NCBI GenBank assembly: GCA_030144725.1
Contig: JASKMD010000030.1
Location: forward strand, 2,232,045 to 2,296,044
Reading direction: 5' to 3'
Source: Haematococcus lacustris
Taxonomy: Eukaryota; Chlorophyta; Chlorophyceae; Chlamydomonadales; Haematococcaceae
DNA: 64,000 bases
The notes under the pieces were generated by a model. The model made no database searches. It had not been told where the DNA came from and worked only from the letters and a program-made list of their open reading frames with translations. The translations under genes were made by a program, and so were the position numbers. Positions 3,838 to 61,975 of the stretch are shown here, in pieces. How positions within the stretch are numbered: the first letter of the stretch is position 1; every line of letters starts with the position of its first letter.

Positions 3838-4190
3838 CCCTAATGGTCGCCTACCACCTACAGCATTGCCTGACCCCGGAGGGCTATTATGATCTAGATT
3901 TGGCATGAGAAACAGCTGATAACAGCTCCAAGGGGGGCACACATTACTGTGCCACAGCAGGCTGCTGCTGCTGCTGCTGCTGGGACTTGGGTGGCTTGTC
4001 TCGCACCCGCTAGTACCCATCCTCAGGAACTCCTTGCCCTTGGTTGGCAACTCTCCCTGCTCTGGCCACCAGCACAGCTCCAGCGGGCGCCACTAGGCCA
4101 CCCCAATGCGCTGCATGTACAGCGCTGCATTGCCGTCCCTGTCTCAACACCTGCCTGGCTGTGGGGCAGGCTTTGCCTTGGTGGTTGCGG
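3838..4190 (-). mobile_element. Short Fanzor-derived element, A-like, degenerate
   Basis: On the minus strand this is the 3' end of a short Fanzor element. A damaged RuvC-III block (DRDGNAALYMQRIG) lies near 4,100-4,140. It is followed by the KGKE..RVRDKPPK type tail, a Gln-rich end and the conserved non-coding tail with GCTGATAACAGC, CATGCC-like and GGTCAGGCAAT words. A stop interrupts the block just before the DRD. It abuts the oppositely oriented element at 4,225-4,612, forming a head-to-head pair with both tails outward. Confidence 0.7.
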
Positions 4191-4224
4191 TTGGCAGAGG
4201 AAGGCAGTTTGTTAGGGCTAGTGT

Positions 4225-4612
4225 GGGGGCTGAATCCAAAAGCTGCCAGCCAAGGGCAAGGAGTACCCTGGCCTGGGCGACAAGCGGGTGCGAGACAAGC
4301 CCCCCAAGGCCCAGGAGCAGCAGCAGCAGCCTGCTGAGGCACAGTAATGTGTCCCCCCCCTTCTTGAGCTGTCATCAGCTTACAATTAGTGCATGTTTTG
4401 TCATGCCAACTCTACACGTTGCCCTAACGGGTCAGGCAATAGTGTAGGTGGTAGGCGGCTCATGTGCCATGTGCACTGGGTTTACTCCACACAGCCCAAT
4501 AACACTGTTTGAGTCGAATCTAGTTAGTGGCTGCTAGTGGCTGCTAGTGGCTGCTAGTAGGTACTTCTGATCCGGCTCAAATGGAGGCCCTAGTGAGGGA
4601 CAAGAGGGCTGG
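4225..4612 (+). mobile_element. Short Fanzor-derived element, family B, 5'-truncated
   Basis: Only the last about 33 codons remain (KGKEYPGLG, then [16 protein letters not shown], ending PAEAQ-stop at 4345-4347); the RuvC-III motif is lost at the junction with the left element. The family-B tail follows: hairpin AGCTGTCATCAGCT, hairpin GCATG-TTTTGT-CATGC, GGTCAGGCAATAGTGTAGG, several copies of GTGGCTGCTA and the terminal CCCTAGTGAGGGACAAGAGGG-like end near 4,590-4,610. Confidence 0.8.
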
Positions 4613-4889
4613 GGACACATCATCGAACTGTGGAGCAGTGTAGATGGTTCCCCATAATGCAACACAGCTTACGCCGTAAGTTACGCCGTAAGTTACAGCC
4701 CGATGATTCCTGTTAAACACATCAAGCCCCTGGCACGGGACTGCTTGTCCTTGCTGAACCTGCAACGACATAGGTCAATGCTGCACCTTGCTGCACCTGC
4801 AATGACATAGGTCAATGCTCATTTGTAAAAATACATACCAATGCTGACGTGCAGCAAAGTCAATGTGCTGGAGTGCAATTTACATACCA

Positions 4890-5873
4890 ATGTTGACGTG
4901 CAGCAAAACAGCGCTGCGCAGCGTGGGTGCCAGGCGGGCATCGCGTCACGCATCTAGGTGCACCGCATCGGCTTTTAATGTCCAACGAGCTCTGGCCACC
5001 GGAGTCGCCCTGTGGATGTCGTTTGCGCCTGCTTCCATAGCGGAGGCACCAAGCACATTCTATGATGAGCTGCAAGGGCAGTTGACCACCCTTGACCTAC
5101 CCGCTAGCCCAGACGATGCCACATTTGAAACGCAAACATCAGCCAGCCTGCAAGACATGCTGGGAGCAGCAGAACGGCTGAGTAAAAGCACAGGCAAGCT
5201 GCTGAGCCTGAGTTCTCAGGACCCTATGGCCATGGTGCCTCAATCTCAGGTGAGCCAAGGCCAACAAGCAGGATGCCAGTACAGCTTATGACCAGGTGTA
5301 TCTTACAACACATTCTTTCTGTTTTCTACAGATGGTTGAGGTTGCCAACCGAATGAAACAAGATGCGCTTGCGCTGGCTGAGGTAAGCTCAGCTGGGCGG
5401 CCCAGCCTCAATGTGGCCAGTCTCAATGTGGCCAGTCTGCGTGAAAAATACACGGTTGTGTGAAAATAAGTGCTGGTCACTGGGCACCTCATCAAAAGTA
5501 ACATCATGTCCAAACAGCAGGCCCTTGTTGCAGGCCTCCTGTTGCAGCCTGTTGCAGCCCAGTCTGCAGCCAGTGGCACTGCCTCACCCGGCCAGTCTGC
5601 AGCCAGTGGCACTGCCTGACCCGACTCTGGCTCCTGCAAGTAACACTTGCCACAGCAGCCAGGTTACACCCCACATCTCTTATTCTCTGTGAGTGTCAAC
5701 ACTGCTGCTCTCAGAGGGCAGAAAGGCTGGCCAGCGTGGAACGGGTTTCAGAAGCTGACCGGAAGTTGGCATTGGACATCCACGAGGCAGCCAAGCTTGT
5801 GAGCCAGATCTCTGGAGATCTGGCGAGGCAGGAGCAGCAGAAGCTGGTGTCCACCGGGACTCAGGCCTCATGA
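4890..5873 (+). CDS. Small coiled-coil protein with plastid/thylakoid-lumen leader
   Basis: Three exons, 4890-5249, 5332-5382 and 5715-5873, join in phase to give 189 residues. Residues 1-35 are Ser/Arg/Ala-rich without acids, like a chloroplast transit peptide. They are followed by a hydrophobic stretch (ALATGVALWMSFAPASIAEA) ending in an A-x-A-type processing site, as in lumenal proteins. The mature part is acidic and helical, with a heptad-rich C-terminus (RLASVERVSEADRKLALDIH). No named family is recognised; the lumen location is inferred from the leader. An in-frame ATG at 4863 exists, but it adds residues unlike a transit peptide. The 332-bp second intron holds a 24-bp sequence (5,443-5,467) found inverted at 38,025-38,050. 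Confidence 0.72.
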
Positions 5874-6015
5874 AGGCGCTCTGGCGACCAGTTGACCTGG
5901 CCGGCCTGCCCGACCAGCGCTCGATGCATGATGCTGTGTAGTCGGGCTGGGGCTGTGCTCGCTGAGCTGCCAATGCCAGGCAGACTAGGCAGTACCTGGT
6001 GACAGCCATATTGTC

Positions 6016-6180
6016 CCTCACTTGGGCCACCATTTGAGCCGGATCAGAAGTACCTACTAGCAGCCACTATCAGCCACTAGCAGCCACTAACTAGATCCGA
6101 CTCAAACAGTGTGGCTGTGTGGAGTGTTGAGCCTACCACCTACACTATTGCCTGGTACCTGGTACCTGGTGACAGCCACA
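6016..6180 (-). mobile_element. Solo family-B Fanzor-element tail
   Basis: The sequence matches, in inverse orientation, the terminal part of family-B elements: TGTCCCTCAC, ATTTGAGCCGGATCAGAAG, repeated TAGCAGCCAC units and ACTCAAACAGTGTGGCTGTG, then TACCACCTACACTATTGCCTG. The coding part and the hairpins are missing. Confidence 0.75.
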
Positions 6181-6189
6181 TGCAGAAAT

Positions 6190-7005
6190 CAGCATGCTGG
6201 GATTTGTGGTCCACGGCAATGAAGGTCCAAGTGAAGGTCAAGGCGCCAGGATGTGTGAGAGCAGGAGGTCACGGTAGGGCAACAGCTAGCAGTCCTGAAA
6301 GGATGGCGCACTAAATGGCAGGGCTTATGCATACTTATTACTGCATCTTGGGGTAGGAGGGCTATGGGGATCAGGTGTTGCCCTTGGAACATGGCCTAAC
6401 CTTGCTTTGTTTACTTCCGGCCTGCTTGGTAGCTCTTGCAATTTCGTGAGCTTGGATGCTGGTGACGATTGCAGTTTGACAGCAGTGTTTTAAGGCACTA
6501 ATGACACAACCCCAGACGGAGTTAGCCGTGCTGTAAGGATTGTAGATCCAATAGCTAAGCAAGCAGACCACTGTAACTCCGATGTTATGAGAGTGATGTG
6601 GAGGAGTGACACACTGGTATGATCCTGTAGCTGGTGTTCTGTGAGCTTCGTGCTGTGTGACCTCCCATACTGCTGTTCCTGCCAGCGCAGGTCCTCGTAC
6701 GCATCAAGGAAAGCACGCTTTGTGGTCCACGGCAATGAAGGCGCGAGTGAGAGTCAAGGTGCTGTGAGGAAATAGCTGACTGTCGGACGACTTCGTCCGA
6801 CTGTCATGCAGTCGTGTATGCATGATGCAGCATCGGCTCCTGGACCTACTCCTAGGCAAGCCTCCCTGGGCCCCACAGACCTCACCCTCTCCACACTAAC
6901 TGACTACCGTACTGATACTGACTACGGTACCTTCTGCACTGTGTTGGACTGACTGACTACCTTCATCACGCATAACCCAGTCTTACCACTAGAGCCAGCA
7001 GCACC
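6190..7005. other. Intergenic, with short local repeats and one hairpin
   Basis: A roughly 40-bp sequence containing GTCCACGGCAATGAAGG occurs twice (about 6,206 and 6,722). A near-perfect hairpin (GTCGGACGA-CT-TCGTCCGAC) sits at 6782-6801. Sequences around 6,890-6,960 are built of TGACTAC/TACGGTA words. No gene was recognised. Confidence 0.5.
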
Positions 7006-7500
7006 TCGTCCCTCACCTACATTGGGATCGGACCACTAGGGACCAGTCAGGTCGGTGTTTGGCTGTGAAGAGTGATGTTCACATGCACATGGCATGGGTG
7101 CCTACCACCTACACTATTGCCTGACCCCTGTGACAAGACTGTAGTCTAGACTTTGCATGAGGATTATGCGCTAATCGTGAGCTGATGACAGCTCAAAGGG
7201 GGGACACAATACTGTGCCGCAACAGACTGCTGTTGCGCCGCCTTGTGTGGCCTGGCCTCGCAGCCGCTCGTACCCCAGGCCTGGGTACTCCTTGCCCTTG
7301 GCTGGCAGAGATGGCTGATCACCAGCACAGCTCTAACTGGCGCCACCTGCTCTCCCCCATGCTCTGCATGTTCAGCGCTGCATTGCAGTCCCTGTCCAGC
7401 CACCTGCCTGGCTGTGGTGCTGGTTTGGCTTTGGCTTTGGCAGCCTTGCCCTTGCCCTTGGCGGGCTGGGTGGGCTTGGCTGGCGGGGGAGTGGTTTTTG
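7006..7500 (-). mobile_element. Short Fanzor-derived element, family C
   Basis: The minus strand carries a Lys/Pro-rich linker, [18 protein letters not shown] and a diverged C-terminal tail (about 7,200-7,460), then the conserved non-coding tail: AGCTGTCATCAGCT, a GCAT-AATCCT-ATGC version of the second hairpin, and GGTCAGGCAATAGTGTAGG. The outer end is CCTCGTCCCTCAC at 7,006, where TAGGGC is missing relative to the copies at 30.9 and 59.9 kb. The reading frame is broken. Confidence 0.78.
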
Positions 7501-7672: not shown

Positions 7673-7989
7673 TGCACCAGGCACATTTCCCCCCACTGAC
7701 CCAGCCTGCCCTCCCTATACTCCCCCCCCCCTTCCCACACGCAGCTTCCCCCGCATTGCAGCCCCCCCATCCCAGCACACACCTCCAGTGCAGCTAAACA
7801 GCTTTGACCCCAAGCTGCTAACACAGATCAGGGATGCCATGGACCTGCTCCTCACTGCCAGGGTGCTTGAGCACCTGATGCGTGGGCCACACTGCAACAG
7901 CATCAAATCTGACCGGACCGGATTTGCAGGTGGTGGAGGGGATGAAGTGGGTATCCAGCTAGCACTATGGCCGGAAGAGGGGAGTGGCG

Positions 7990-8590
7990 GTTGGGAGAGG
8001 GCTGCTTCAGCCAGGGTGGGTGGAAGGCAGGGGGGTGCAAGAGGGGTTTCGCAAGGTGGTGGAACGGCCTACATTTGTCAGGCATGACAGGCTGGTGCTC
8101 GTGGATGAGTTCCGCACCAGCCGTGTCAGCTCAAGTGTGCACGGCCCCCAGCGTTGTGAGCTGCACCGGCCATGGGACCAGCCCAGGCCAGCAGACTGGG
8201 TACCTCCAGCAGGTCAGGTCAACCACCGCTGTTGCGCCCAGCCTGGAGCCTGCGGCATGCTAAGGATGTGCGGGGCCTGAAGTGGTGCCATGAGGTGCCG
8301 CCCAACCCCCCTCCCCCTCCCCCAGCCCCTGCCTAGGACCCTCCCCCTCCCCCAGCTCAGCCACCCCTCCCCCCCTCCTGGCACGGGCCTATTGTTGCAG
8401 GCCTCCTGTTGCAGGCCTTCTGCTCAGCCCAGTTGCCTGCAAGAGCGTCCCATTCAGGCAGATGCTGGAAGAGGCAATGTGGCTGCTGCCGCGCTCAAAA
8501 AATGCCGCTGTCCAGCCGGCCCAGGGCCACGTCCCACCGAGCTGTGCTGATGGGTTGGCCGCCCAGCCATGCCAGAGCCGGGCAGGATTC
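7990..8590 (+). pseudogene. Fanzor relic with RuvC-II motif
   Basis: A frame around 8,040-8,215 encodes FRKVVERP..RHDRLVLVDEFRTSRVSS, the RuvC-II region with its glutamate. It then continues as DWVPPAGQV and, after a frameshift, RPAWSLRHAKDVRGLKWCHE and a Pro-rich stretch ending in TAG. A separate block at 8,500-8,580 resembles the extreme C-terminus of the long Fanzor copy at 43.3 kb (RCPAGPGPRPTELC, GRPAMPEPGR) but has a stop. RuvC-I and RuvC-III were not found. Confidence 0.72.
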
Positions 8591-8738: not shown

Positions 8739-10475
8739 ATGTTTCCGTGTTCTCCCCCATCGTCACTTCCGCTCGTTGTAAGCGTTGCGCTCGCCATGGC
8801 TTGCTACTGGGGGTTCCAAACAACAAGTAATCGTGTGGTATGGGCCATCGTATTTTCTCTGCTTGCTGTCGGCAAGATTCTCGTCATAGGTATGTGCGAT
8901 TGCTTCATTCCTCTCGCGCTCAAAACTCGACTCCTGCATTAAGCAAAATGCCCCATGCAGTTGGAGCAATCGCTGGCTCCACGGGCAACAAATGCTTGGC
9001 ACGGACCCGGGTATGCCCTTAGAGCCCAATGCATATAGCGGTAGATGGCGGCACATGACATTGCCTAGTGTTTGACAGCTGAATGAGTTTTGTTTGTTTG
9101 ACAGCACATGGCTGTCCTGCAGGTTTGCTTGAGAGCATACGACCTGCATGGTTGCCCTGCAGGATTGCTTGAGAGCATACGACAATGATACGCAGTACTG
9201 CATGGACATCATTGACTGTGACTATGTGACGTATGCCAGCCTCATCATCGCTGGAGTTGTACTCTGGATTGTGGGGGCGCTGTGCACCTCATACTTCTGC
9301 TGCTGCTCCAAACCGCACCCTGGCATGGCGAGCGCTGCCACCCAGGTGCCTGACATGCCCTGCCGTTTGAGCCAGGAGCCTAAGCTTGGCCAGCACCGTC
9401 AGTGCCCTGCAGCAGAAATTGCCCCATTTTATCTCTGCGTTTTTGGCCTTGCAGTTTTACTGCCAAACACCACACTACCCTTGCCTGACTGCGCTCCTGT
9501 CATAATGGCCTCTCCCCGCAGCCACCGCTATACAACAGCGCTGTCTCTCCGTACCCAGTGGCGCACCCTGCCGCTCCTCAATACGCTCCTGGGGGCCCCC
9601 CTCCTCAGTATGGGGCGCAGTACCCGCAAGTCGTCCAGGTGCGGCCGCAAGCACTGTGTAGCGACCATGACTCCAAAACACCAACAGAACCTCACTTTGT
9701 TGTGATGAGCCTCTGATGCTGCATTGGTGAGGGATGCTCGCTGTCATTGGCCCCATCGTCATGAGCACACAGTGTCCACCACATGGTGTCAAGCACTGCT
9801 GGAGTGTGGGCTTGCATCATGCAGGCAAGCTGCACCTCACACTTCTGGCATATGCTTGACCACTGGCTGTCTGCTGAGCATGGAGCCTGCACCAAGGCCT
9901 GGGTCACACAGTTCCAGCACACAAGTTGCAGGCTAGTGCAACACCCTGTCAGCCAGCCTTAATGAGGTGCCCAGTGGTCTCCAGTTGTTTGGATTGAGCG
10001 TGCCACCGGTGTGGAATTTTTAGTCGACAAGGGTGAGAGGAGGATGCTACAACATGTTTGTAGTAGCTGAGTGAGATTACCCACAGTCAAACATGTTGTT
10101 CCATGTTGAATGAGTTTTGTTTGCCTGCCCAGCCAGCACCTGTCTTGTGACACGTAACAGCTGCTTTATTGTGTCATACGCTTTAATGACAGCATCAATG
10201 TTGGTCCCCATCCACCATCCAGCATGGTCCCCACTCATCTTGGATTGTGCTATGCTATTAGGGTCATTTGCCAACATGGCAGGAACATGCTAGCCTGCTG
10301 CCAGCTGCTGCTGCCTGGAGCCCCAGCTGGCCGCTGTCTGCAGTCCTTGACCCAGCATAGCGGCTGTGCTAGCACTGCTGCTGTGCAGGCTGTGCCGGTG
10401 TACGGCTACCCTGTGGCGCCACCACAGCCAGGCCAGGAGCTGCCGGGGACCTCCCAAGGCGGCAAGAATGTCTGA
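8739..10475 (+). CDS. Single-pass membrane protein with Cys-rich segment and Pro/Tyr-rich tail
   Basis: Three 3' exons join in phase: 9163-9345, 9522-9638 and 10389-10475. They encode an acidic Cys-containing segment (YCMDIIDCDYVTY), a hydrophobic helix (ASLIIAGVVLWIVGALCTSY), a CCC motif right after it, and a cytosolic-type tail with PPPQYGAQYPQVVQ and YGYPVAPPQPGQELPG, ending GGKNV. An upstream exon at 8739-8889 encodes another hydrophobic stretch (VVWAIVFSLLAVGKILVI), but its splice phase does not match 9163, so an exon is missing or the start is wrong. The PPxY-like tail suggests WW-domain binding; this is inference. The last intron contains a copy of the 'GTAGCTGAGTGAGATTACC' repeat. Confidence 0.6.
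9107..9186 (+). repeat. 40-bp tandem duplication spanning a 3' splice site
   Basis: CATGGnTGnCCTGCAGGnTT and the following TGCTTGAGAGCATACGAC occur twice with a 40-bp period (9107 and 9147). Each copy has its own CTGCAG acceptor. Only the second copy continues into the conserved coding exon. Confidence 0.85.
9963..10128 (+). repeat. Dispersed repeat F, full-length copy
   Basis: GTGCCCAGTGGTCTCCAGTTG through GTAGCTGAGTGAGATTACC to GTTGAATGAGTTTTG. It matches 60,800-60,960, where it is the tail of a Fanzor relic. Partial copies lie at 10,716-10,806 and 20,300-20,401, and the last 18 bp at about 9,079. Confidence 0.8.
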
Positions 10476-10806: not shown

Positions 10807-11114
10807 GCCTGCACATGGCTCGTAGCTCCTTGTTACTCGGGTGCTCAATCTTACATTGTTTTTGCCCAGCTTGCCAAGGGTTGGGTGAGGCCTACGGTAA
10901 CACGCTGGATCTTCTTGGCCAAGCTATCATGCACTCCTTTACATGCTATCTTCGCCATGAGGTCAAAGTCACGGTCCCCAACGAGCCCAGGGTCACGGTC
11001 AAAGGCAGGGTATAACTAACCCATAGCAAGCACAGCCTAGCTTCTTGCTAGCTTCAGGGTCAAAACCCTCTTGCGCTTCTTACGCTATAGCTACGACAGG
11101 CTTACAGCCCTCTT

Positions 11115-11445
11115 GTCCCTCACTAGGGCCACCATTTGACCATTTGAGCCAAGTACCTACTAGCAGCCACTAGCAGCCACTAACTAGACCCGACTCAAAC
11201 AGTGTGGCTGTGTGGAGTAAACCCAGTGCACATGGCACATGAGCCGCCTACCACCTACACTATTGCCTGACCCGTTAGGGCAACGTGTAGAGTTGGCATG
11301 ACAAGACATGCACTAATTGTAAGCTGATGACAGCTCAACAAAGGGGGACACATTACTGTGCCTCAGCGGGCTGCTGCTGCTGCTCCTGGGCCTTGGGGGG
11401 CTTGTCTCGCACCCGCTTGTAGCCCAGGCCAGGGTACTCCTGGTA
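11115..11445 (-). mobile_element. Short Fanzor-derived element, family B, 5'-truncated
   Basis: The minus strand retains only the last codons (about 11,353-11,440; [17 protein letters not shown].., ending AEAQ-stop) and the full family-B tail to the CTCTTGTCCCTCACTAGGGCC end near 11,118. Beyond 11,440 the sequence changes abruptly at TACTCCTGGTATCAGG. Confidence 0.8.
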
Positions 11446-11624
11446 TCAGGGTTCAGCCTGGTATCGCTGCTTGGCCAATGCAGGCAAGACCTATGATGGT
11501 GAAGTCCCAGGCTTACAGCCCGAGAGACAGCCTGGTGCCAAGGAGACCAGGGGGTAGCTTACCAATCGGTGTATGTCAGAACAAATGAAAGAAAAGAAAA
11601 AGTATTTATAAATAGAAGTAAAGG

Positions 11625-15056: not shown

Positions 15057-15119
15057 GGTTATGGGCCCACTCGCCCGTGGTGCCGTGTCGGTCGACCAGT
15101 TTGAATAGGGGGCAGTGAG

Positions 15120-19943: not shown

Positions 19944-20299
19944 GGCCTGTGGAGCCAGACACACAGCACCAGACTGAGCCAGTCCTTGTGTGCTGCAGAT
20001 CTGGCATGCGCATGTGCTGGTGCGCGCTGCCGCTCCTGACTCTCCACCTGCCAGCTGTGCCTGAAGCACGACTGCCATGGCATGGCCACCAGCTTGCTCA
20101 CCTTGAAGGCGTCATAAGACGGATGCGTGCAGTGTGTGACCCCATGCATGTATTTGCATCACGTGTCTGATGTTAGTCACATACATGTCAGTCACATATA
20201 AGTACTGTCACACTAGTCACACGGGAGTGCAAGCCACGTTGGAGATGTATGTACTGGCTCGCTTATGGCTATGACTGGTCATCGTCGGGGTTGCCCACA

Positions 20300-20401
20300 A
20301 GTCAATGGTGCGACCGAGGATGCTTCAACTTGTTTGGGAGTAGCTGAGTGAGATTACCCACAGTCAAACATATTGTTCCTTGTTGAATGAGTTTTGTTTG
20401 A
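20300..20401 (+). repeat. Dispersed repeat F, partial copy
   Basis: GTGCGACCGAGGATGCT, GGGAGTAGCTGAGTGAGATT and TTGTTGAATGAGTTTTGTTTG match the copies at 10.05, 10.75 and 60.9 kb. Confidence 0.75.
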
Positions 20402-43899: not shown

Positions 43900-46800
43900 A
43901 TGTTGTCTGGTCGCTCGGCCCAACGTGTAGCTTCCTTTTCACGAACTGGCGGACAATTGATGGCAACCGAGCGCCATAAGCCATCTCAAGGCGACTTGGT
44001 GCAAGCAGTGCTGCTGCGTAGCGCGGAGGCCCTCATTGACATTGGCGCTAACCTTGGAGACCCTTCATTTGACAAGGTGCGGCTCAGGGTGGGCAGCGGT
44101 GGCAGGTGAAGCTACGTGGGCAGCTCAACTGGGCGCCACTCCACCTCCCCTGCTCGCTGAAAATTGCGCTAGGTTGCAGTCCCGGTCTAGCCACTTGCGT
44201 GGGTTTGGTGTTGGAGGGTTAGCTCAGCTGCCTTGCCCTTGCCTAAGTGCACTGTGTGGGGAAAGGGTACTGACCGTAGGCTGGCGCCCTACATGGGCCG
44301 CATACCTGCCTGGGGTTAGGGGCAGCTGGTGGCACTGCACCAGGGGTATGACATGAGGTCATGCACAGGCATTTAATCTGCCAATCTGCCAAGAAAAGGA
44401 CAATGTTGCCAAAGCCAGACCAGCCAGACCAGCCAGGCAGGTGGGTAGACAGGGACTGCACTGCAGCGCTGAACATGCAAAGCATTGGGAAGAGCAAGTG
44501 GCACCCTTTGAAGCTGTGCTGCTGGCCAACCCAGGCTTCTCTTCCTGCTAAGGGCTAAGAGCACCTAGGCCTGGGCTGCAAGCTGCTGCAAGACCCGAGC
44601 GCCCAAGGCCCAGCCCCAGCCCCGGCAGCCTGTAGCACAGTAGCATGTGTGCACTAGGCAATGCTTAAGCTGTTGCTTACATCAGAGCATGAGTTTCATG
44701 CCACCACCTATCGCCCCACCCTCGTAAGGGGGCGAGGGTAGGAAATTAGGTATTGGTGCCGGCTGTTTTAAGTATAGGTACCGACAGTTCGTATTGCAGA
44801 TAACGCATCTCCTAATAGTAGGGGTATTATGCGCTGTATTACAGTAGTCATTTCTCAGTCGTATCGCAGTCATGTTCAAGCTGAGCTAGCTTACATTAGT
44901 AGCTTACATTAGTGCATGTTTGTTATGCCAAACTGTCCAGTTGCCCCTTACCACAGGGGCAAATGCAGGAGAGCAGGGGGTGGTCCCTGCAGGCTCAGGG
45001 ACACTAGTGCAGAACTAGTGGATGTGGCGGCTTTGCACACCAGGCACCCCACCACACCACTGCGCCGTCAGCCGTCAGTCAGCACACCAGGTACCTGGCA
45101 TACAATAGTACAGGGTACTAACCTCCTCTTACATAGTGCCGACATGCAGCAGAGTGCTGTAGAGTGCTGCATACCCCTCTGATATCCTCACACAGGCGTC
45201 TTGACTGCTGCTTTTTGCACTGAAGAGCTCTATTCGCATGCTTTGATGAATACTGGATTGCTTCCTCGGAGGCATTGCGCTACTGGGCTCATACCTGCTC
45301 ATACCTATTTATACCCGTGTGTCACTCACTCTCGCACCTCCAAAGGGCACCTCCAAAAGGCACCTCCGAAGGGCACCACCAAAGGGCACCACCAAAAGGG
45401 CTGACAAGTGTCGCTTTTCAGCAGCCTGGTGCCCATGTTGGCGCATGATGTACAGGACATGGATGCGGTGATCCAGCGGGCGCGTGACGCCAATGTGGCG
45501 AGCATGATTGTGACCGGCACCTGCAGCAAAACCTGCTCCAAGGCCCAGCGCCTGTGTGAGCAGAGCAGCTACCCTCTCTACTTCACAGCCGGGGTGCACC
45601 CCCACAATGCCAAAGAGTGCCATGACCTGTGAGTCAGCAGCCAGGCTTGACAGCAGGAGTGCCACTTCGCTCATGCTGACCAGCAGCTGGTGTAAGTGGA
45701 CCATGACCTGTGAACCAACAGCTTGTGGGGATGGCGCCCAGCCTGCATCATCGCAGGCATGAGAGCCCTGGCTGTGCTGGTACTTGGGATCAGCAAGGGC
45801 ATACCCCAGCCCCAACCATGACGCGAGCCCTGACGCAGCAGCACTGCAAAGCTGCAGACCGGGCTTCATATGCTGTCACTGCTGCTGCTGTTGCTGTTGC
45901 TGCTGCACGTTGGGCACTGGAAGCACATGCATAGTAGGGCATGGCAGCTGGGTTGCCTGGCCCGCATGGCTAGCCATTGCAAGCCTGCTGCTGCAGCCGT
46001 ATCCCAGGCACCCTCTCCTCCCCTATGCCCTGGTATGTCCTCACTTACTGTACCTGCATGGTTGTGGCAGCAAGCAGGTGCCTGCTCACTGCCCTGCCTA
46101 CCTGCCCTTGCCCAACACCCGGTTGCAGGACCCTAACTGAGCTGCGGAGGTTTGCTTCTCATGCGAAATGTGTGGCCATCGGTGCGCTGGTCACCCCGAC
46201 CCCCATGCCCATCCCCTGCTTTTGCCCTGGGCCGCTTGCTGTCAGCTGCCTCGTGCCCGGTGCTGCTCAGGTTTGAGACCGCACTGCACCCGCAGGCTCA
46301 GGGACACTAAGAGGGATGGAAAGCTTACACCACCATGCACCTTAATGCCATGTGCTTTGCATTGGCTTATGCTGGCCATGCAACTGCTTACACTGTGTGT
46401 GTGTGAGGTCTTGCTTGGTGGGGGCTGGCAGGGCCGCCCAGGCAGGACTGCTGTCCCTCACTGTGCGGCAGCCCTTCTACCCACATGGCTGTGCCTCTCG
46501 GCCAGAGCAGTGTGCATCCTCTAGGCCAGAGCAGGGCCCACGGGCAAAGGGCAGACTTGTCAGCTACAGGCCTTGTCAGCTACACCTTCCTCTGACCTAG
46601 CTGCCTGCTTACACCTTGCCAGTGCATTTTCTCCCCATCAGCCTTGCATGGGTACTATCTAACTGATTCGAGGCTTCCCCTCCACACATGGCACGGCCCA
46701 GTGCAGCTGCGTTGACCCCTGCTACCACATTGCTCACATCGAACGAAGGCTGTCACGGAGTGGTGCCACTGGATCGTTCAGGTACTTTCACCAGAACACC

Positions 46801-49800
46801 TGCCACAGATAGGGTCAGCAGCCAGGGATGGGTGTGCTGCCTTAGGATGATCCACTGCGTCAGCTCCACATGGCTTGGCAGTGCAGTATGCGCGTAGCCC
46901 CTCCCAGGCACCTGATCTCTCCGCACTGCTCCGCCTGGCTAAAAAAAAAAAGAAGGAAAAGACTACTCCTGCATGGGTATCGTTGTGCATTTAGAGAGTA
47001 GATACTGCCTGGGGCACGGCCTGCACCTATCCTCTACCCCAGCTGTATAGGACACACCCTCAACCCCCTCCTCTGACTCCTGCCCTAATGGCCCAGTGCT
47101 GGCTTGAGCCCATCTGGCCCTGGCCATATGCCCTGCTCCCTCCACTGAGCCCTACTACCACAGCAGCCATGCCTGGCTGACAGCTGTTACAATGTGAACC
47201 CATCCTCACCACTGCTGCCGGGCCTTGTGGCTGCAGGGGAGTGCGGCCTGGACTTCAATCGCAACTTCTCACCCCAGGCCGTGCAGCTGGAGTGGTTTGA
47301 GAAGCAGGTACAGCCTAGACCTGGTTGCCCTGGCCTGCCTGCTCTAGCCTGCTCCTTATTTCTACTATTGACGTACCAGGCCCAGTGCTACTTCATTCCG
47401 GTACCATTGGCCGGTACCACAATTTGGCTGCTTGGCGGTGCATCTGGCGGACAGCCCTTGACAGCCTGCACCTGCCCCCACTGGCACTGTCGCTGCACCC
47501 TAAGCCTCGGACCTCCACCCACCACCCTGCTCATCAGCCTCACTGCCTGAACCACAGCCAACCCTGCACTCCACCCTCCTTTGTGCCTCGATGGTCTCAC
47601 TATGCTGACAGCCTTGTCATGGCATCGTTGTTTTACCCATGACTGCGCTGCCTCGAGTACAGCTGCATGCGGTGACCCTGACCATGCCCAGGTGGCTCTG
47701 GCTGTGGAGCTGCGCAAGCCTCTGTTCATGCACTGCAGAGAGGCCGCACCGCAGCTAGCTGACGTGTTGAGGTGGGTCCCTGGCGCTGCACACACAACCA
47801 CACACAGAGCAGAGATTACATTACGCAAACTGACAGGAACAGAACCTTGGCCCTCAACCTAGAGCCTTCATTGCAGTGGAACACTAAGTGTAGACCTCTA
47901 CAAAGCGGTGTTTTGTCTGTGTGGAGTTCCCATGCACGTGGCATACACATGGCACACACATGGTCATGGTCGCCTACCACCTACAGCATTGCCTGACCCC
48001 GAAGGGCTATGTTGTTGAGTTGGCAAGACAAACATGCACTAAGCGTACGCTGGTGACAGCTCAAAGGGGGGGGGGGGGCACACACTACTGTGCCGTAGCG
48101 GGCTGCTGCTGGGCCTTGGGTGGCTTGTCTCGCAGCCGCTTGCACCCATGCTCAGGGTACTCCTTGCCCTTGGCTGGCAGCTTCCCCTGCTCTGGCCAGT
48201 AGCACAGCTCCAGTGGGCGCCACCTGCTCTCTCCAATGCGCTGCATGTTCAGTGCTGCATTGCAGTCCCTGTCCAGCCACATGCCTGGCTGTGGTGCAGG
48301 CTTTGCCTTGGCAGCCTTGCCCTGGGCCTTGCCCTTGGTGGGCTGGGTGGGCTCAGCTGCCTGCTCAGCCTCAGTGCGCTTGCTGCGCTTGGCTAGCAGG
48401 GGAGTGCTAGGCCCTGGCTGGGAGTGCCGGGCTTTCAGTTGGATGCGGCTCTTGCTCCGCGGTACTGGGCCGCTTCCTTGAAGGCATTGCGCCACTAGGC
48501 GCATACCTGCTCTTACCTGCTCATACCTACTTATACCCGTGTGCCACTCACTCTCGCACCTCCAAAGGGCACCTCCAAAGGGCACCCCCAAAGGGCTGAC
48601 AAGTATGCAGACATAGAGCCCAAGTACGCAGAGCTCATCGCGCTGCTTGTGTAATGTGTAATATCTCTGCTCTGTGTAGTGTCAGGTTGTAGTGTCAGTG
48701 CTGCAGCGAGGTCGGCACTGACAGGAACGGCAGCCCAGGAGGCCATCCACACCAACCTTGCCCAATGCAATGCGCGCAGTGTGCTGTTTTGCAGGCCCTG
48801 ATTGAATGCTCACTTGGTAGCCAGCCAGCCACCCACCCACTTGCCTGGGTGTGATTTGGGAGTGACCCAGGCTGCCTGACATGTCAATTGGGTGACGCCC
48901 AGCGCCACTGACCTACAATAGGTGTGGGTTAGGGTTAGGGTAAGGGTTAGGGTTAAGCTAGGTGTGACTGAGGCACAGAGTGCAGGGTGGGGCTGGAGGG
49001 GTGCTGGAGTGAGTGCAGGGTAGGGCTAGAGGCTGGAGAGAGCATTAGAAGACTTGTGGGTAGGGGCAGCAGGGTGCACACCACTGGGCCTTGCCTGGGC
49101 ACTGCCTGTGGCCCCCACTGCTCAAAACCCTGGTGGACTTCGCAGACGCTACCTTCCCTTACCTGCCCCTGCCGTCGTCCACTGCTTCACCGGCAATGCC
49201 CAGGAGCTCGCCTGCTTCTTGGAGATGGGTCTGCACATTGGCATCACAGGCTGGTGAGAGAGGCACGGCTGCTTGCTGTTGACAGCTTGGTGAAGTGGCT
49301 AAGGGCTATAGGGCATAGGGTGGCCTACAGCCTCAGGTGGTGGCCTGTCTGGCGTCTGGCTGACGGCAGCAGCCCAGGAGGCACGTCCGCTGATGCAGAT
49401 GGGTACGGGCTGTGAGGACCTGAGTGCAGGGTGTGACCTGCTGCTGCGTCACAGGGTCTGTGATGAGCGACCGGAGAGGGGAGGTGCAGAGCTGGCCCGC
49501 CTGCTGCCATCCATACCCCAGGACAGGCTGATGCTGGAGACTGATGCACCCTACCTGGTGACTCCTGGCTGGGCAACTCATTCAAACCACACGGCAAATG
49601 CTTTGAGACAAGCATGCAAGCCAGCCTTCCAGCCATGCCTTGTGGTATTTCAGCCAAGGGTCATGCCCCTGTGCTTGCTTGCCTCACTCTTACATTTATG
49701 CACACGCATGCAGGTCCCACGCACCATCAAACCCAGCAAGGCCCGGCCTGGCAGAAACGAGCCGGCGCTGCTGACACACGTGTTGAACGTGAGTTTGTGT

Positions 49801-50785: not shown

Positions 50786-53067
50786 GGAGCAGGCCCAGCA
50801 GAACGAGAAGGCCAGCGGTGAAGCGTGCTGAGCCCGCCACAATAGCAACACCTGGCATGCCAAGCAGCGCAAGCTGCATGCCGTGATGAGAGGGGTGTCC
50901 GCTGCGGGTTTAGAGGCGGGGGCCGGTCGTGGCGTCCGCTGTGGTCGAGGCGCGGCTCGTCCAGCAGATTGAGGCTCGGGTGAAGGCCTGCACTATGAGG
51001 GCGCTGCTCACTAGCTTGCTACTGGGCCACATGGTGCGCGGCTGCTTCACACGGGTCACTGCGCTTGCGGACGGGCGGGAGGCCTTCGACGACATCCCTG
51101 CCGAGGACGCCATCATCCCGAATCTGGCAGAGCTGTGGAGGCTGTGTTGGCCGCGTACCCGGACTTCCACACCCGCCTAGTCGCCATTCCTCGCTATCAG
51201 GGTCTAGGGTAGGTCGAGAAGTGTATGGGCTCCACAGGAGAATATTTAGGGATTTATTTATTTATTTAGGGATACAGGGAAAATTGGACCAGGATGGGTA
51301 GTAAGTACGGCAGCACACGCGACAGAGAGTTGATAATCCGTGTCACCTCGACAGCCAAGTGTGGGGTGGGCTCGACCACATCCTCCGGGTTCACGACCGG
51401 CTCGTCAATCTGCGAACACCATCGTACTACGTAGCGCGTTATCAAGGTCAAGTCTTGGAAGGCAAGGTGCCGGCGGTTGTCGCTACTGGCTAGCAACGCA
51501 TCAAAACATCGGCTGGTGTTGACCGCAGGTGGCCAACCGGTGGAACGCCTTCTTGCCCGACCTCCCATCCCTCTGGCCCAACCGCGGGCAGACATTCGCG
51601 CAGGTGGTGCACACGGAGTCACGGTCAGCGTGATGTTAATGCGCCCCAAGCCAGCAGGGCCGCCCGACTGTTACGTGGGTATGCACCGTATGTGCAACAC
51701 TAACATCTCGCGAGCACCTATTCCAACGCAACACCGACGCTGCCTTGCATGGGCAAGCATGAGGGCGCTGTCGACACGCTGGCGCACCTGGACGCCGACT
51801 GGCTGGGCTGCGACCCGGGGAAGACAAACATGGCGACAGTGGCCCTCAAGGAGCGGCACCCCTCCAGCGCTGTGACGTCCGTGTGGCATCGGCGCCTGAC
51901 TGCGGGGCAATACTACCGGCAGAGCGGCATCACGGAACACGCCAAGACGTCCAAGGCCTGGATGGCCGACATCAAGCCCCAACACGATGAGCTGTCGCAA
52001 GTCACCACCTACACCGTCTCGCTGCAGCGGTACCGGCAGTACGCTAACACGGTGCTGGCAAACTGGCCCGTCATGTGGGCCGAGCTGTCTAAGCCGCGCT
52101 GGGCCAACGCCAGGGTCCGGCTGTACCGAGGCAAGCAGCGCACGGAGGCTAAGTTCTGGGCTTAGGTGAGTAGGCCGTACCCAGCCACTATGTGTGCCAG
52201 TTTGTGTGCCACAATGTTTGTCTTTGCCATGGCTTGACTTGAGCTCACAAATTGGTTCTCCTTGTGTGCCTTGGCTGCAGACTGTGAGGGGTGCCAGGGT
52301 ACGCTGCATCTCAGCTGCCACAGGTCGCCCCCTGGCCCTGGCCTATGGGGCAGCAGGCTTCAGCGGCAGCGGCAGCATTGGCAGCAGGGGTGTGCCTGCC
52401 AAGCAGATTCAACGGGAAGCATGCAAGCAGTTCCCCGGGCGTGTGGTGCTGGTGCATGAGTTTCGTACCAGCCGGGTCAGCTCTGCCCGCACCGACGTGG
52501 TGGCAGGCCAGCCAGAGTCTTTCAGGTAAGAGACCTCAGGTGCATGTTGTTTGTAGGAATGTACTCATTACATAGCTGTAGAATGGCACTTCACACAGCT
52601 GTGAAATAGCCTCACACACCAACCCCTGACTGTGCCAAGCACCGTTTGAACTAGACTATGGCTTGACTAAACACTTGGTTTGGCAAGGAAGGATCTTACA
52701 GATGTGCATTGACATATGTTGCCTTGCAGGTGGTTGTACCCGGTGCGCAACATCCCGGATCAGGGGCCTGATGTGCTCAACAAGCAATGTCATCAAGCGC
52801 AGGCTTCACGACCGGGACGTGTCAGCTGCGCTGAACGTCCGCCGCATTGCAGCCGGGCCGGGCCGCCCACGCGAGCTCAGCAACTGGAGGGGCCGCCCCG
52901 CCATGCCTAACCCAGGCAGGCCAGGCCAAGAGTGGGTGGACGTGCGCGACAAAGGCCTGCTGCGGAAGTGGCAGCGGCGGCACCAGCGGCAGCTACAGTT
53001 TCATGTGTGGCATGCCACAAAACCACGATGTGTGTGCGAGAGAGTCCTGCATAAAGTAGGCCTCTAG
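50785..53067 (+). pseudogene. Fanzor long form, copy 2, heavily damaged
   Basis: Recognisable parts in order: AQQNEKASGEA (about 50,790); VEARLVQQIEARVKACTMRA and LLLGHMVRG (50,935-51,045); AVLAAYPDFHTRLVAIPRY in another frame (about 51,140-51,200); an exon from 51529 (VANRWNAFLPDL); WLGCDPGKTNMATVA (Asp at 51812-51814) up to TAG at 52163-52165, where copy 1 has Lys; exon 52281-52525 with VVLVHEFRTSRVSS (Glu at 52458-52460); and an exon from 52730 with WLYPV, an 11-nt loss, then RGLMCSTS and HDRDVSAALNVRR. The intron of copy 1 at 43178-43288 is absent. The stop at ..HQRQ is lost, adding about 23 codons. It cannot encode a working enzyme. Confidence 0.85.
51266..51500 (-). repeat. Inverted internal Fanzor segment
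   Basis: Within copy 2 the minus strand here is open and reads YVVRWCSQIDEPVVNPEDVV then EPTPHLAVEV. Copy 1 at 41,302-41,400 reads YVRRMVCGLDVSWLLEQGGV then VPTPAMQAEV, with the same spacing. The middle of copy 2 therefore appears flipped. Confidence 0.5.
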
Positions 53068-56700: not shown

Positions 56701-57898
56701 AAGCTTTCCGACAGCACCTTGGCCCTCAACCTAGAGCCTTCATTGCAGTGGGACACTAAGTGTGGACCTCTACAATGCGGTGTTTTGTCTGTGTGGAGTT
56801 CCCATGCACATGGCATACACATGGCATACACATGGCATACACATGGCATACACATGGTCATGGTCGCCCACCACCTACAGCATTGCCTGACCCCGGAGGG
56901 CTATAATGTAGAGTTGGCTTGATGTTTTCACGGGCTTTCAATCGGATGCGGCTCTTGCTCCGCAGTACTGGGCCGCTTCCTCGGAGGCATTGCGCCACTA
57001 GGCTCATACCTGCTCATACCTGCTCATACCTACTTATACCCGTGTGTCACGCACTCTCGCACCTCCAAAGGGCACCTCCATAGGGCACCTCCAACTAGGC
57101 TCATGCTGCGTCAGCAGTACGCAACCCGCTACAGGTACCAGCAGCTTTTCCTTGTTGTGGTGTGCTAGTGGCCCTGCGTTTGTTCTGGGCCGCTTTTCCT
57201 TGCTGGGTGGAGGCTAGTGCTGGCAAAGGCCCAGTTGGGGAGCTAAGCTTTCCGTCAGCGGCTACCCGCTGTCACCACCACAGAAGTGCAACCCATCCTG
57301 CTGCCTTCTTGTCTGTTTGTCATCCCATGACACCACCCCATCAGCAATCTCATGGGTTCAGGTTCCTTTGGCATACGTGGATGCACGACCATGCCTACAC
57401 ACCGAACTCCCTGCTCGCTGTGATTTTCAGGTGCCTGCAGCTCAAGCGACTCGGCGTGCAATGGTCAAGCTAGGCCGTCCGCAGCTTCCACCCCTGGCAG
57501 CCAACCTCATGGCGTCGCCGTTTGATCACAGCCACCAACTGGCCAGCCAAGGGGCTGAGAGGGCCGAGAGGGTCGAAGCAGTTGCACGACCGAGCCACAT
57601 GGGCAACCCTGTTGCAGTTCAGCTTGGACATGCCTCATTCCCACACCCCGACAGCCCCTTGGCAACTGGTGGTGATGACGGCAAGACCAGGAGCTGGGGG
57701 CTGGACCTCTCCACTCCCAGTTGCTTGGTTCTGCCAGGGCTCCCTCGTCACAACCCTTCTCACGGCACAGTTGCCTCACCCACCTCATCACCTGCATCTG
57801 TACAAACCAGGCTGGACGTCAGCAGGCCCGGGCAGCAGGATATCCATGTTGACACAAGCTGCTCGTTGGCAGGGGCCGCCAGGTCTGGAGGAGTTTGA
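53739..57898 (+). CDS. GATA-type zinc-finger transcription factor
   Basis: Five exons, 53739-54036, 54198-54343, 54705-54767, 54864-56579 and 57431-57898, all join in phase to 896 residues. The zinc finger is split across exons 2 and 3: CAHCGEADSPQWRR then NRNMVLCNACGIYYSRH, a C-x2-C-x18-C-x2-C finger of the plant type that binds GATA sites through one zinc ion. A basic run (SSRRKGGRRTS) precedes it. The rest is Pro/Ser/Gln-rich low complexity, as in activation domains, with LLLQLSGGCHKHSLEDAGQL as a possible helix. MPAGAVSF at 53787 is an alternative start. The last intron contains a family-A element derivative. Exon 4 contains 31 bp identical to a family-C element end. Confidence 0.9.
56716..57095 (-). 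mobile_element. Family-A Fanzor element, internal-deletion derivative
   Basis: Outer end ACCTTGGCCCTCAACCTAG, the outer tail with four ACATGGCATAC units, and GGTCAGGCAATGCTGTAGG are present, but hairpins 1 and 2 and the coding part are gone. At about 56,935 it jumps to the GGATGCGGCTCTTGCTCCGC segment and a shortened GGGCACC array. It lies in the last GATA intron, 335 bp before the exon. Confidence 0.8.
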
Positions 57899-58039
57899 TG
57901 CGGGAGTTTGATGCAAGAGAGGTGACCAAGAGAGGTGCCAAGGTGGGTGCCTGTGCAATGCAGCATAGCCTGTCTGTCTCTTGCTTGCCTCTCCAACACC
58001 CTGCAGCAGGCCAGGAGCCGCACCACTACACTTACAACG

Positions 58040-59325
58040 CATAGTTCCCCTACAACTAGGAGATGCATTACCTGAAATCCGAACTGTCGGTACCTACACT
58101 TAAAACAGCCAGCACCAATACCTAATTTCCTACTTCCACCATCTTACGAGGGTGGGGCGATAGGTGGTGGCATGAAACTCATGCTCTGATGTAAGCAACA
58201 GCTTAAGCATTGCCTAGTGCACACATGCTACTGTGCTACAGGCTGCTGGGGATGGGGCTGGGCTTCGGGTGCTCGGTCTCGCAGCTTCTTGAAGCCCAAT
58301 GCCGGGTACCCCTTGCCCTTGGCAGGAGCCACTCCTCGGTGTTTCCACCTGCACAGCTCCAGTGGGCGCCATGGGGCCTCCCCAATGCGCTGGAGGTTGA
58401 GGGCTGCGCTGCAGTCCCTGTCCACCCATCTGCCAGTGTCCTCAGGGGTGGCTTGGTCCGGCTTGGGGCACCCGCACCGGCGCCTTAAACCGCTTGCTCC
58501 AGGCTGACCGCAACAAGCGGTTCTGCACCTGACCTGGCTGGGGCATCCAGCCTTCAGGCCTGGTGGGCTTGCTGCGGCCCAGCTTCTCCTCACAGGGCTG
58601 GGGGCTGTTCACAGCTGAGCTGACCCTGCTGGTGCAGAACTCATCCACAGTCACCACCTTGGGTGGCAGCCTGTCTGTCGGCCTGCCGCTGTTGGGCCTC
58701 TCCACCACCTTGCGTCAGGCCTGCAGCACAGCCTTGGCCCTCCACCCACTCCGGGTGCCAATGCCTGCGTTGCGAAAGAATACCACCAGCTGCTAGCGTG
58801 TCCTCCACCGCTGCTGGGGCACCATGGCTGCATCCTCCTCCATCTGCATGACACACAAGGCACACAATGCGCATGACATCCTTGAAAGGATTGGGGACAT
58901 GGCACCTAGCAGGTCACAAGAGGGGGCAGTCATCAATATCTGGCCCTGTCCCTTCCCCCTACCCTTGGCACTCCCACCTTGTCGAAGTAGCGCTCCAGGA
59001 CCTTCTCCTGCGCGCCGCACAGCCTCATCCTCTGCTCTGCCCACTTGGGATGCAGGCACTCCCCCACACTGCATCCCAGGTGGCCAGGGTGACCGCCACA
59101 TGCCGCTGGATGGCCACCTGGGAGGTACCTGCTGGGGTGGCTGCTGCCAGATGTTGCAGCTCGAGCTTGACGTTGTCATTCCGGCGCTGAGAGCTGCGGC
59201 GAGCCTGGATCAGGCCTCTGGCATGCTGCACCTGGCTCCTAGTCAGCTTGCTGCTGTGGAAGCTTGGGCACCTTGGGGCTTGGGCAATTTGGGCTCATCC
59301 GCACTCTTGCGCTTCTTGCCCTGCA
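58040..59325 (-). pseudogene. Fanzor, family D, near full length but decayed
   Basis: The minus strand begins MQGKKRKSADEPKLPKPQG (59325), then after stops LTRSQVQHARGLIQARRSSQ, LHPKWAEQRMRLCGAQEKVL and ERYFDK (about 59,230-58,980). This resembles the TnpB/Fanzor W..QR.R..AQ-VL-R region. Next come KVVERP..PPKVVTVDEFCTSRVSS (RuvC-II, about 58,640) and [28 protein letters not shown] to the stop at 58228. RuvC-I was not found. Its tail (58,040-58,227) matches family D at 44.65 kb. No single frame spans it, so it is dead, but it shows which longer protein the short elements came from. Confidence 0.75.
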
Positions 59326-59329
59326 TTGC

Positions 59330-59920
59330 GCTTTGTAGTGGACGGCACTTCGACTCTCTCGACTCTCAAGACTCTCATTCTCACGACTAACATTGGAAAG
59401 TCATGAATCTGCAACTGTGATACAGCAGGCTCCTGCTGCTGCTGCTGCAATCAACTTACAGCAAGCATGCATATCCTGCATTCGCAAGCATGCATAGCAA
59501 TGCAGGCTGGACTAGGACGATGTAGCTTCAAGGACAAAATAGGATAGATACAAGGACAGATATATAAGGACAGGTATTAAGCTATCCAAGGCTCACTGAG
59601 TGTGACTGCTTGTGCCTGGGATGGGGTCAGTGAGGATGGTGAGTGCAGCAGGGTCATCGAGTAGGCTACTAGCAGCCTCGGATGGCTTGCATTGATAGGA
59701 GTGCTTGTGTGATTGATAGGTAAAAACACGCAGCGCAAGAGTTGGTCTCACAAGTGCTGTTCCCCACCCCACAGTGCTTGGCTAACTAGGTGCAGAATCA
59801 ATGTGGTGCCACCAGGAGGTTTATTGGGCGCAAACTGCCCTGCAGATGCCATCGACAGCGGTAGAGCCCAGCCCCCAGCCCTGTGTGTGTATCCATATAT
59901 TTATATGCCTCACGACTAGC
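59330..59920. other. Intergenic, no supported gene
   Basis: CTGCTG- and GCATGC-rich sequence with a tandem TCGACTCTC at 59,350-59,385 and a 23-bp near-repeat around ACAGATATATAAGGACAGG. No exon was recognised. Confidence 0.45.
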
Positions 59921-60175
59921 TCTTCGTCCCTCACTAGGGCCTACATTGAAGTCGGACCACTAGGGATCACTAGGGACCACTCAGGTGCGTGTCATGGGGC
60001 TGTGTGGAGTTGTGTTCCCATGCACATGGCACACAGCATGGGCGCCTACCACCTACACCACTGCCTGACCCCTGTGACAGGGCTATTGTCTAGAGTCGGC
60101 ATGACAAGCATGCACTGTATGAAGCTGATGATAGCGGAAGATAGGGGGCACACACTACTGTGCTTTCACGGAGTG
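59921..60175 (-). mobile_element. Family-C Fanzor-element tail
   Basis: Outer end TCGTCCCTCACTAGGGCC, then CACTCAGGTGCGTGTCATGG, TACCACCTACACCACTGCC and the CCTGTGACAGGG hairpin. Hairpin 1 is mutated (GCTGATGATAGC). The coding part is missing. The inner junction AGGTCTAGCTACGA also borders the inner edge of the 30.9-31.3 kb copy. Confidence 0.75.
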
Positions 60176-60195
60176 ATTCATAGAGTGATTTTTGC

Positions 60196-60965
60196 TTGTC
60201 CAGGTCTAGCTACGACCACGACACCGCCAAGCCGCCAAACTGTGGAGCGCCTCCCGACGAGCCCAGGCCCACAGACTGGGTGCCTCCTGAAGGGGAAGTA
60301 ATGCAGCAGCTGCTGCGCCCAGCTTGGAGCCTACGGCATGACAAGCTGGTGTCGGGTTTGCGCCCAGCCTGGAGCCAGCGGCCTGACAAGTATGTGCGGG
60401 GCCTGATGTGGTGCCATGAGGTGCCGCCCAACCCCCCTCCACCTCCCCAGGACCCACCTCCCCCTCCCCCAGCCCAGGACCAGCCCCCCCCCTGGTGCAC
60501 CTGGCCCAGTGCCATGACCCTTGGCCCCCCCTTGGGGCAGGTGGCTGGACCGGGAGACCAACCTCGTGCCTGTATTTCCAGCGCACTGGGGAGAGCATGC
60601 AGCGCCCCCTGGTGCTGCGCCAATGGGATCCGCTCTGCCCCCCATTAGCGAGGGAATGCCAGCAGCGCTACAAGCTGGTCGACGACCGGCTGCCCAAGGT
60701 CGAGCAGAGGCTGCATCGGGCTGCAGAGTACCGGCGGGGCATTGATGGCCGGGCCCGCAACAACCCATAGGGCCTAGTAGTTTACACAAGGTGCTACTAT
60801 TGATAAAGTGCCCAGTAGTCTCCAGTTGCTTGGAGCGAACGTGCCACTGGTGTGGGGTTTGTGGTCATCAAGGGTGCGACCGAGGACGCTACAGTTGAGT
60901 TGTAGCTGAGTGAGATTACCCACAGTCCAACATGCTGTTCCATGTTGAATGAGTTATGCTTGAAT
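60196..60965 (+). pseudogene. Diverged Fanzor relic with DRE in place of DRD
   Basis: The frame opens DEPRPTDWVPPEGEV, then LRPAWSLRHDKLVSGLRPAW, KYVRGLMWCHEVPPNPPPPP. Next, in another frame, GRWLDRETNLVPVF and, after a one-base shift, FQRTGESMQRPLVLRQW and QRLHRAAEYRRGIDGRARN to a stop at 60770. Aligned with the short elements ([23 protein letters not shown]) the second Asp of DRD is Glu and the NAALN core is lost. The tail (60,800-60,960) is repeat F. The region 8.1-8.3 kb is its closest relative here. Confidence 0.65.
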
Positions 60966-61389
60966 GGATTATCACGGGGTATGCATGGGGTTTCCATGAA
61001 ATGAAAGGTATGAAAAGGCATGAAATGTCATGGGTGCCCCATGGCTGTAGTGGAGGGAGAACCACCCACAGGCAAAACGTATGTCCATGTACTCTAGCTG
61101 GCTCGTGGATGCGCTAGGGGTGACACTGTGTGCAAGATGTAGGGAATGAATTAATGTACACATGGGGAGGGGGCGTATGCTGTGTTGACAGATGGTGTTG
61201 ATGAAGGCTTACACCACTAATGTCATCAGTCACAACGCTGCTTCGCCGCATTCTGTGCTGACGGACGAACCCATAAGGGTTGGCACTGATGTCCTTGCAT
61301 CCCGCTCGAAGGCATTCAGAGCATCGGCCGGACAGTCTGTCCGTCTAGAAATAAAAAACCTAGCTAGGCAGGAGAAGTGCAGCGAAACA

Positions 61390-61820
61390 GACAGCGTAGA
61401 CGCGCAGCTAGAACCAAGCCAGGCTCAGCAGAACATGCAGGCCAACGGCGAAGCGCGTGATGAGAGGGGTGTCCGCTGCGAGCGTAGAGGCGGAGGCGGT
61501 CGTGGCGTCCGACGAGGTGGAGGCGCGGCTCTACGGGCAGCTTGTGCTTTGGGTGGAGGCCTGCAGGATGAGGGTGCTCGCGGTCCCGGATCCGGGGCCT
61601 GATGTGCTCAACAAGTATCAACAGCATCAGGTCCCGCGACCGGGACGTGTCAGCCGCGCTAAACATCCGCCGCATTGCAGCCGGGCCGGGCCGCCCTCGC
61701 GAGCTCAGCAGCTGGCTGGGCGCCATGCCTAACCCAGGCAGGCCAGGTCAGGAGTGGATGCACGTGCGAGACAAGGGCATGCTGCGGAAGTGGCAGCAGC
61801 GGCACCAGCGGCAGCGATAG
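61390..61820 (+). mobile_element. Long-Fanzor deletion derivative, copy 3
   Basis: The N-terminal block (AQQNMQANGEARDERGV; then DEVEARLYGQLVLWVEACRM in another frame) runs to about 61,585 and is joined directly to the C-terminal block RIRGLMCSTS, SRDRDVSAALNIRRIAAGPG and RKWQQRHQRQR-stop (61818-61820). The entire RuvC-I/RuvC-II middle is missing. The 3' side keeps CCCCT-CACA-CAGGGG, the TAGGGTAGGG run and the CCTAGGGT..ACCTAGG hairpin to about 61,975. This is what a non-autonomous derivative of the long element should look like. Confidence 0.8.
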
Positions 61821-61975
61821 TGACATGTGTATCATGCCATGAGCCAAGCAAACAAACAAACAATTCGATTGCCCCTCACACAGGGGATGTGTGTGCGTTA
61901 GAGTGTGCATAGGGTAGGGTAGGGCTCTAGCGACTCCTAGGGTTAGGGACCTAGGTCAGGGACTCACACCGGTCC

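Follow-up and report, generated by a model that had tools for sequence, protein, structure and literature searches.

Probable relics of at least three families of Fanzor1-bearing DNA elements in a contig of Haematococcus lacustris

The stretch analysed here (the window) comprises 64,000 nucleotides of Haematococcus lacustris DNA (contig JASKMD010000030.1, positions 2,232,045 to 2,296,044) and holds long and short copies of Fanzor-like nuclease genes, which are probably relics of several related families of DNA elements. A first-pass annotation of the sequence had marked eleven blocks with DRD-type motifs of the third RuvC segment (RuvC-III). All eleven are real: a six-frame pattern scan recovered ten of them in frame (7.4, 20.8, 28.3, 38.3, 43.3, 44.5, 48.3, 52.8, 58.4 and 61.6 kb), and the eleventh, at 4.1 kb, is a decayed copy found by DNA alignment and tblastn (3983-4161, 74%). 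With eight related proteins as queries, tblastn gave 257 matches in 26 clusters in the window (E<=1e-3) and none at the same threshold in the reversed window, so that the blocks are not chance resemblances.

The features are collected in Table 1. That several families are present, as the annotation had proposed, was borne out; there are at least three, here given our own letters A (with a subfamily C), B and D. Family A with subfamily C accounts for most of the short copies and for the longer one at 58033-59249; family B comprises 39959-43451, 50808-52992 and 61457-61931; family D comprises 7767-8297 and 60265-60985 together with the tails at 9959-10127 and 20286-20397. The proteins of families A and B are 33% identical over 245 aligned residues.

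Table 1. Fanzor-related features of the window, by position
Coordinates	Strand	Family	Description	Basis or repeat
3843..4181	-	A	Decayed RuvC-III (4.1-kb block)	
4240..4611	+	A	Without RuvC-III (no DRD codons); orientation opposite to adjoining 3843..4181	
6003..6161	-	A	159 bp; noncoding tail only, no DRD codons	15-bp direct repeat
6999..7493	-	A	RuvC-III present, reading frame broken	
7767..8297	+	D	Family D type piece with displaced-glutamate motif	
9959..10127	+	D	Noncoding tail	Direct repeat >9 bp not found
11105..11507	-	A	403 bp; without RuvC-III (no DRD codons)	12-bp direct repeat
20286..20397	+	D	Tail, 112 bp	14-bp direct repeat
20767..21254	+	A	With RuvC-III	
27842..28487	-	A	With RuvC-III; left edge provisional	
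30909..31315	-	A	Cut inside terminal exon, no DRD codons	
37967..37982	+		Direct repeat, 16 bp, left copy	Right copy 38719-38734, overlaps last four bases (GCTG) of 37983-38722
37983..38722	+	A	740 bp; ATG leader reading MARKK joined to 3' part	
38540..38567	+	A	28-nt block in 3' noncoding tail	Alignment of ten copies: invariant in 24 of 28 columns
39959..43451	+	B	Long copy, nearly complete Fanzor1-type gene	tblastn with P0001; DPG motif at 42199
44396..44838	+	C	3' end copy, RuvC-III then in-frame stop	
47840..48716	-	A	877 bp; 5' leader joined to 3' part	12-bp direct repeat
50808..52992	+	B	Long copy, RuvC-I, II and III motifs at 51812, 52458 and 52813	tblastn with P0086, motif scan
56712..57242	-	A	531 bp; 5' leader joined to noncoding tail; without RuvC-III (no DRD codons)	12-bp direct repeat
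58033..59249	-	C	Upstream exon, displaced-glutamate exon, RuvC-III	tblastn (58136-59249)
59917..60163	-	A	Noncoding tail only, no DRD codons	
60265..60985	+	D	3' part: coding remnant and tail	Direct repeat sought, not found
61457..61931	+	B	3' end copy, last exons only	tblastn 61457-61793; end at 61931 by DNA comparison

The best preserved gene is the family-B copy at 39959-43451, which retains its introns between the exon blocks 39959-40621, 41196-41852, 41974-42558 and 42687-43451. By tblastn the first three blocks are 98.6, 92.5 and 97.9% identical to the H. lacustris protein P0001, the second alignment (92.5%) extending into an intron; the frame is broken inside the exon that carries the displaced catalytic glutamate. 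Three long copies had been claimed, and this one fits the description, but the copy at 50808-52992 has lost its middle part (the segment corresponding to residues 154-377 of P0086) and that at 61457-61793 retains only the last exons. Conversely, the 58.4-kb block had been counted among mini elements, yet it also has a displaced-glutamate exon and an upstream exon. The motif EFRTSRVSS at 8.1 kb belongs to a family-D type piece, the downstream neighbour of which is a family-B end piece at 8482-8649.

Motifs, profiles and a predicted fold together show the long copies to be of Fanzor1 type; their predicted protein carries the RuvC residues aspartate, displaced glutamate and aspartate (D-E-D). The Fanzor fingerprint as given in the available part of Yoon et al. 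2023 (PMC10711439) is a DPG motif in RuvC-I combined with a displaced glutamate. The DPG motif occurs in both long copies (39959-43451 and 50808-52992) and in 118 of the 240 relatives listed, fragments in many cases; in 187 of the 240 the displaced glutamate stands six residues ahead of the zinc-finger position, and DPG, displaced glutamate and RuvC-III follow in order in 97. Relatives are listed as the best 120 of each of three protein searches (360 rows, 329 distinct proteins). In a 42-row alignment (A1) chosen without regard to the DPG motif, D500 and G502 are invariant, P501 nearly so, and E674 is nearly invariant; E261 is invariant in a further alignment (A3), most rows of which were picked by motif pattern.

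A profile search of the Protein Data Bank (PDB) ranked the Fanzor1 of Guillardia theta (GtFz1) first. With a predicted family model, itself of low confidence, Foldseek placed Fanzor structures at ranks 1-5 among 350,542 PDB chains, and VIA-align likewise gave Fanzors at ranks 1-5; the RuvC fold of the model agrees with solved Fanzor1 structures. An earlier model, built from P0001 with A1, had been set aside because of its pLDDT (predicted local distance difference test) of 40.4. Other searches were silent: the PDB search with the joined protein was empty, a family-B-only profile returned one unrelated PDB match (E 1.3), and six proteins had no match in NCBIfam. The annotation's view of the long copies as TnpB/Fanzor-like is thus upheld, and narrowed to Fanzor1 type. 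It had named lack of a profile match, or membership in a different RNase H-like family, as grounds for giving up that view; what the profile and fold searches returned was Fanzors, although Pfam by itself gave weak support.

The likeness to GtFz1 and to SpuFz1 of Spizellomyces punctatus, which were the top fold matches, lies in the D-E-D layout of RuvC. Identity in those matches is only ~14-16%, and SpuFz1, as described in the available text, has a CCCC zinc finger and is encoded in one open reading frame between inverted repeats.

The short copies are built on a different plan from the one first proposed. A common 3' terminus was found in 11 family-A copies (10 of them aligned), and their 5' start points differ, lying 159, 403, 531, 740 or 877 bp away where a direct repeat bounds the copy. 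In three copies (left edges 37983, 48716 and 57242) a leader with a start codon is joined to the 3' part; the 740-bp copy may be read as an internal deletion, its presumed leader resembling the MARKK with which related proteins begin. 'RuvC-III-only mini elements', the annotation's term, is therefore replaced by a fixed 3' end with graded 5' truncation or internal deletion, as several copies lack RuvC-III despite the common 3' end and two family-D tails (9959-10127 and 20286-20397) are free of coding sequence. RuvC-III codons are most likely kept in short copies because they adjoin the fixed 3' end. The reading frame is broken in two of seven terminal exons compared, and the changes in five terminal-exon copies number 18, 12 and 44 by codon position, a bias that is a sign of protein constraint on the source elements. 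The claim that the short copies are non-autonomous is supported; their dependence on a full-length Fanzor, also put forward in the annotation, would be conjecture. Pieces of the family-A 5' leader also stand alone at 18892-19051 and 45251-45409 and hold arrays built from a 13-bp unit, GCACCTCCAAAGG (+ strand); the leaders of the copies at 48.5 and 57.0 kb have this unit too.

Direct repeats of at least 12 bp were found at six of 11 family-A ends, five of them at a plausible left edge, in a test whose scope did not extend to subfamily C or to the copy at 4.1 kb; the sixth, at the copy at 27842, was dropped because its match falls inside the element itself. At random positions such repeats occurred in 1.1% of 3555 trials outside low-complexity DNA and in 3.6% of 4000 unfiltered trials. 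The family-A repeats measure 12-16 bp as matched; several begin with the element's own terminal bases and are 8-12 bp without them. Family D contributes a single case (20286-20397). Family B was searched at all three of its ends and gave matches of 10 bp or less only, at implausible places. Among the six repeat-bounded cases of families A and D, the repeats begin at or beside (G)CTG in five, the duplicated sequence starts with the element's terminal GCTG in three, and TTTT directly precedes the repeat in none, six being a small sample from one species.

Conservation of the 3' tail raises the question of an RNA function. None of 5000 column shuffles reached the 24 invariant columns of the 28-nt tail block. 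The short copies might be working 'ghost' elements, that is, donors of omegaRNA to a Fanzor made elsewhere, kept for the use of their 3' RNA and a guide taken from the flank. The conserved tail block favours this, as does the precedent of ghost loci with active omegaRNA in Spizellomyces (Saito 2023, PMC10432273, in the part available), where Fanzor-less copies keeping the 3' region likewise stand beside Fanzor-bearing ones. Ghost Spu-1, however, has both inverted repeats and a tested omegaRNA, in contrast to the single fixed end of the present copies, which are known from DNA. Covariation was sought in the tail and only one of 27 predicted pairs changed on both sides; the copies have diverged and are truncated at many points, and conservation may equally mark the end used in transposition. 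We regard a donor role as doubtful.

Because the long copies have kept their introns, copying probably took place at the DNA level, and the blocks are in our judgement probably what is left of three or more related families of intron-containing DNA elements that bore a Fanzor1 gene and were copied from an anchored 3' end. Two points limit this. Support from Pfam profiles is weak by itself, single open reading frame pieces of the window having no Fanzor/TnpB match in Pfam or PDB, and the intron argument has no bearing on the shortest copies. In the proposed scheme, copying would start or anchor at the 3' end and would often stop early or jump, a course already put forward for CRe-1/2/3 of Chlamydomonas reinhardtii, with the transposase supplied in trans. 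Intact copies would encode an RNA-guided nuclease using an RNA from the 3' end of the element and a guide from the flank, as expected from Fanzor biology.

The CRe elements, for which the authors proposed one-ended Helitron2 transposition (Bao & Jurka 2013, PMC3627910), are the closest parallel, and by analogy the Haematococcus elements likely work in the same way. According to the accessible text of that paper, CRe elements have a Fanzor1 gene in 5 to 10 exons, comparable to the intron-bearing Fanzor1 gene here; both show frequent 5' truncation, internal deletions and intact 3' ends, with variable target duplications and hundreds of copies. They differ in that duplications start at or beside (G)CTG here but after TTTT in CRe, in that no Helitron partner was identified here, and in that the zinc finger, called strictly conserved in the paper, is missing here. 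In the Helitron2 pattern of that paper a terminal or subterminal hairpin at the 3' end goes with a paired 5' structure; near the 3' end of family-A copies short hairpins fold at -6.4 to -12.8 kcal/mol, values that have no control beside them, and membership in Helitron2 would be putative. The 5' region of the long family-B copy partly resembles, over short stretches (67-89%), repeats at 16.9-17.1 and 27.2-27.4 kb, recalling the 5' ends which, in the same text, CRe elements and Helitrons have in common. This repeat pair has no Fanzor reading frame; its members, 84-89% alike, lie at 16075-17233 (-) and 26451-27454 (-) and have part of their 5' region in common with the long copy.

The same truncated copies might instead have been made in trans by a long interspersed nuclear element (LINE): target-primed reverse transcription would leave copies with a constant 3' end, truncated 5' ends, duplications that vary and a (G)CTG in common. 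Truncation and duplications are indeed observed, and the terminal GCTG that opens three of the six duplicated sequences would suit such a mechanism. The introns of the long copies, however, are not what retrocopying predicts; a 5' leader is joined directly to the tail in three copies, and the ends listed showed no A-rich tail. We regard LINE-mediated copying as improbable.

The sequence between the displaced glutamate and RuvC-III departs from the published Fanzor pattern. No CxxC was present between these motifs in any of 188 segments of relatives, covering all three families and picked by pattern, a choice that a differently built relative would escape; further sets of 16 and 36 segments, overlapping the 188, also had none. 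The first cysteine position is serine in 201 of 207 displaced-glutamate motifs. The predicted relatives of families A, B and D are thus shown by their sequences to lack the C4 zinc finger while keeping the D, E and D residues. In the available portions of these papers, a C4 finger between RuvC-II and RuvC-III is termed strictly conserved (Bao & Jurka 2013, PMC3627910), a zinc finger is common to SpuFz1 and ISDra2 TnpB (PMC10432273), and many, though not all, Fanzors are said to have one (Yoon et al., PMC10711439). Since the finger is thus found in many but not all Fanzors, we read the lineage as a zinc-fingerless Fanzor1 type rather than a textbook member. That the protein is some other RNase H-like nuclease, as the missing finger, the silence of Pfam over single open reading frames and two empty single-sequence PDB searches might suggest, is very improbable given the Fanzors that rank first in profile and fold searches and the DPG motif and displaced glutamate.

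The simplest reading is that the zinc finger was lost before the families split, and its loss in three Fanzor families with D, E and D kept is possibly new. Intact copies, if active, would be Fanzors able to do without the finger and would reveal what that part does. A bolder scheme would be a large Haematococcus radiation of Fanzor1 nucleases that keep D-E-D but have given up the zinc ribbon (TNB/NUC domain), with a pool of Fanzor-less 3'-end copies as omegaRNA donors; guides read from the flank would fit the empty allele, and insertions would be copied or retained through RNA-guided cutting and repair. We think this unlikely.

By itself the window is nearly ordinary, holding remains of transposons such as were already described in 2013. 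The three protein searches found 245, 895 and 385 relatives at E<=0.001 among 8000, 7994 and 586 scored candidates (the sets overlap, and the search with 895 matches used a joined D/A query), and H. lacustris is the species on all 360 listed rows. With hundreds of relatives spread over many contigs within a single species, the blocks look like dispersed repeats and not like the special, dense locus that had been supposed. Searches of IMG/VR viral contigs and of plasmids found no relative. The published Haematococcus assembly is 50.8% transposable elements, and a word search of the accessible text found neither Fanzor nor Helitron (PMC10400597); the open-licence literature searched, as far as its texts were accessible, gave no description of Haematococcus Fanzors. 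The scale, 895 matches in one search, is possibly new, and so many relatives in one alga would offer a good natural test of the use of Fanzor to its element. Many of the annotated relatives have, beside a Fanzor tail, Pfam domains that have nothing to do with it (histone, Ras and actin, among others); these are probably gene-model fusions over inserted copies, with some possibly real exon capture.

Other features of the window include a perfect 157-bp direct repeat (14900-15056 and 15923-16079), whose two copies stand 866 bp apart and may stem from a recent rearrangement or an exceptionally long target duplication, and a low-complexity-rich inverted repeat of 1.7 kb, 89% alike, at 21889-23593 and 24800-26419. 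The reading frame at 49393-50370 (+) has a weak Pfam match, below the cut-off, to TatD DNase (E 1.5e-4) and is perhaps a host gene.

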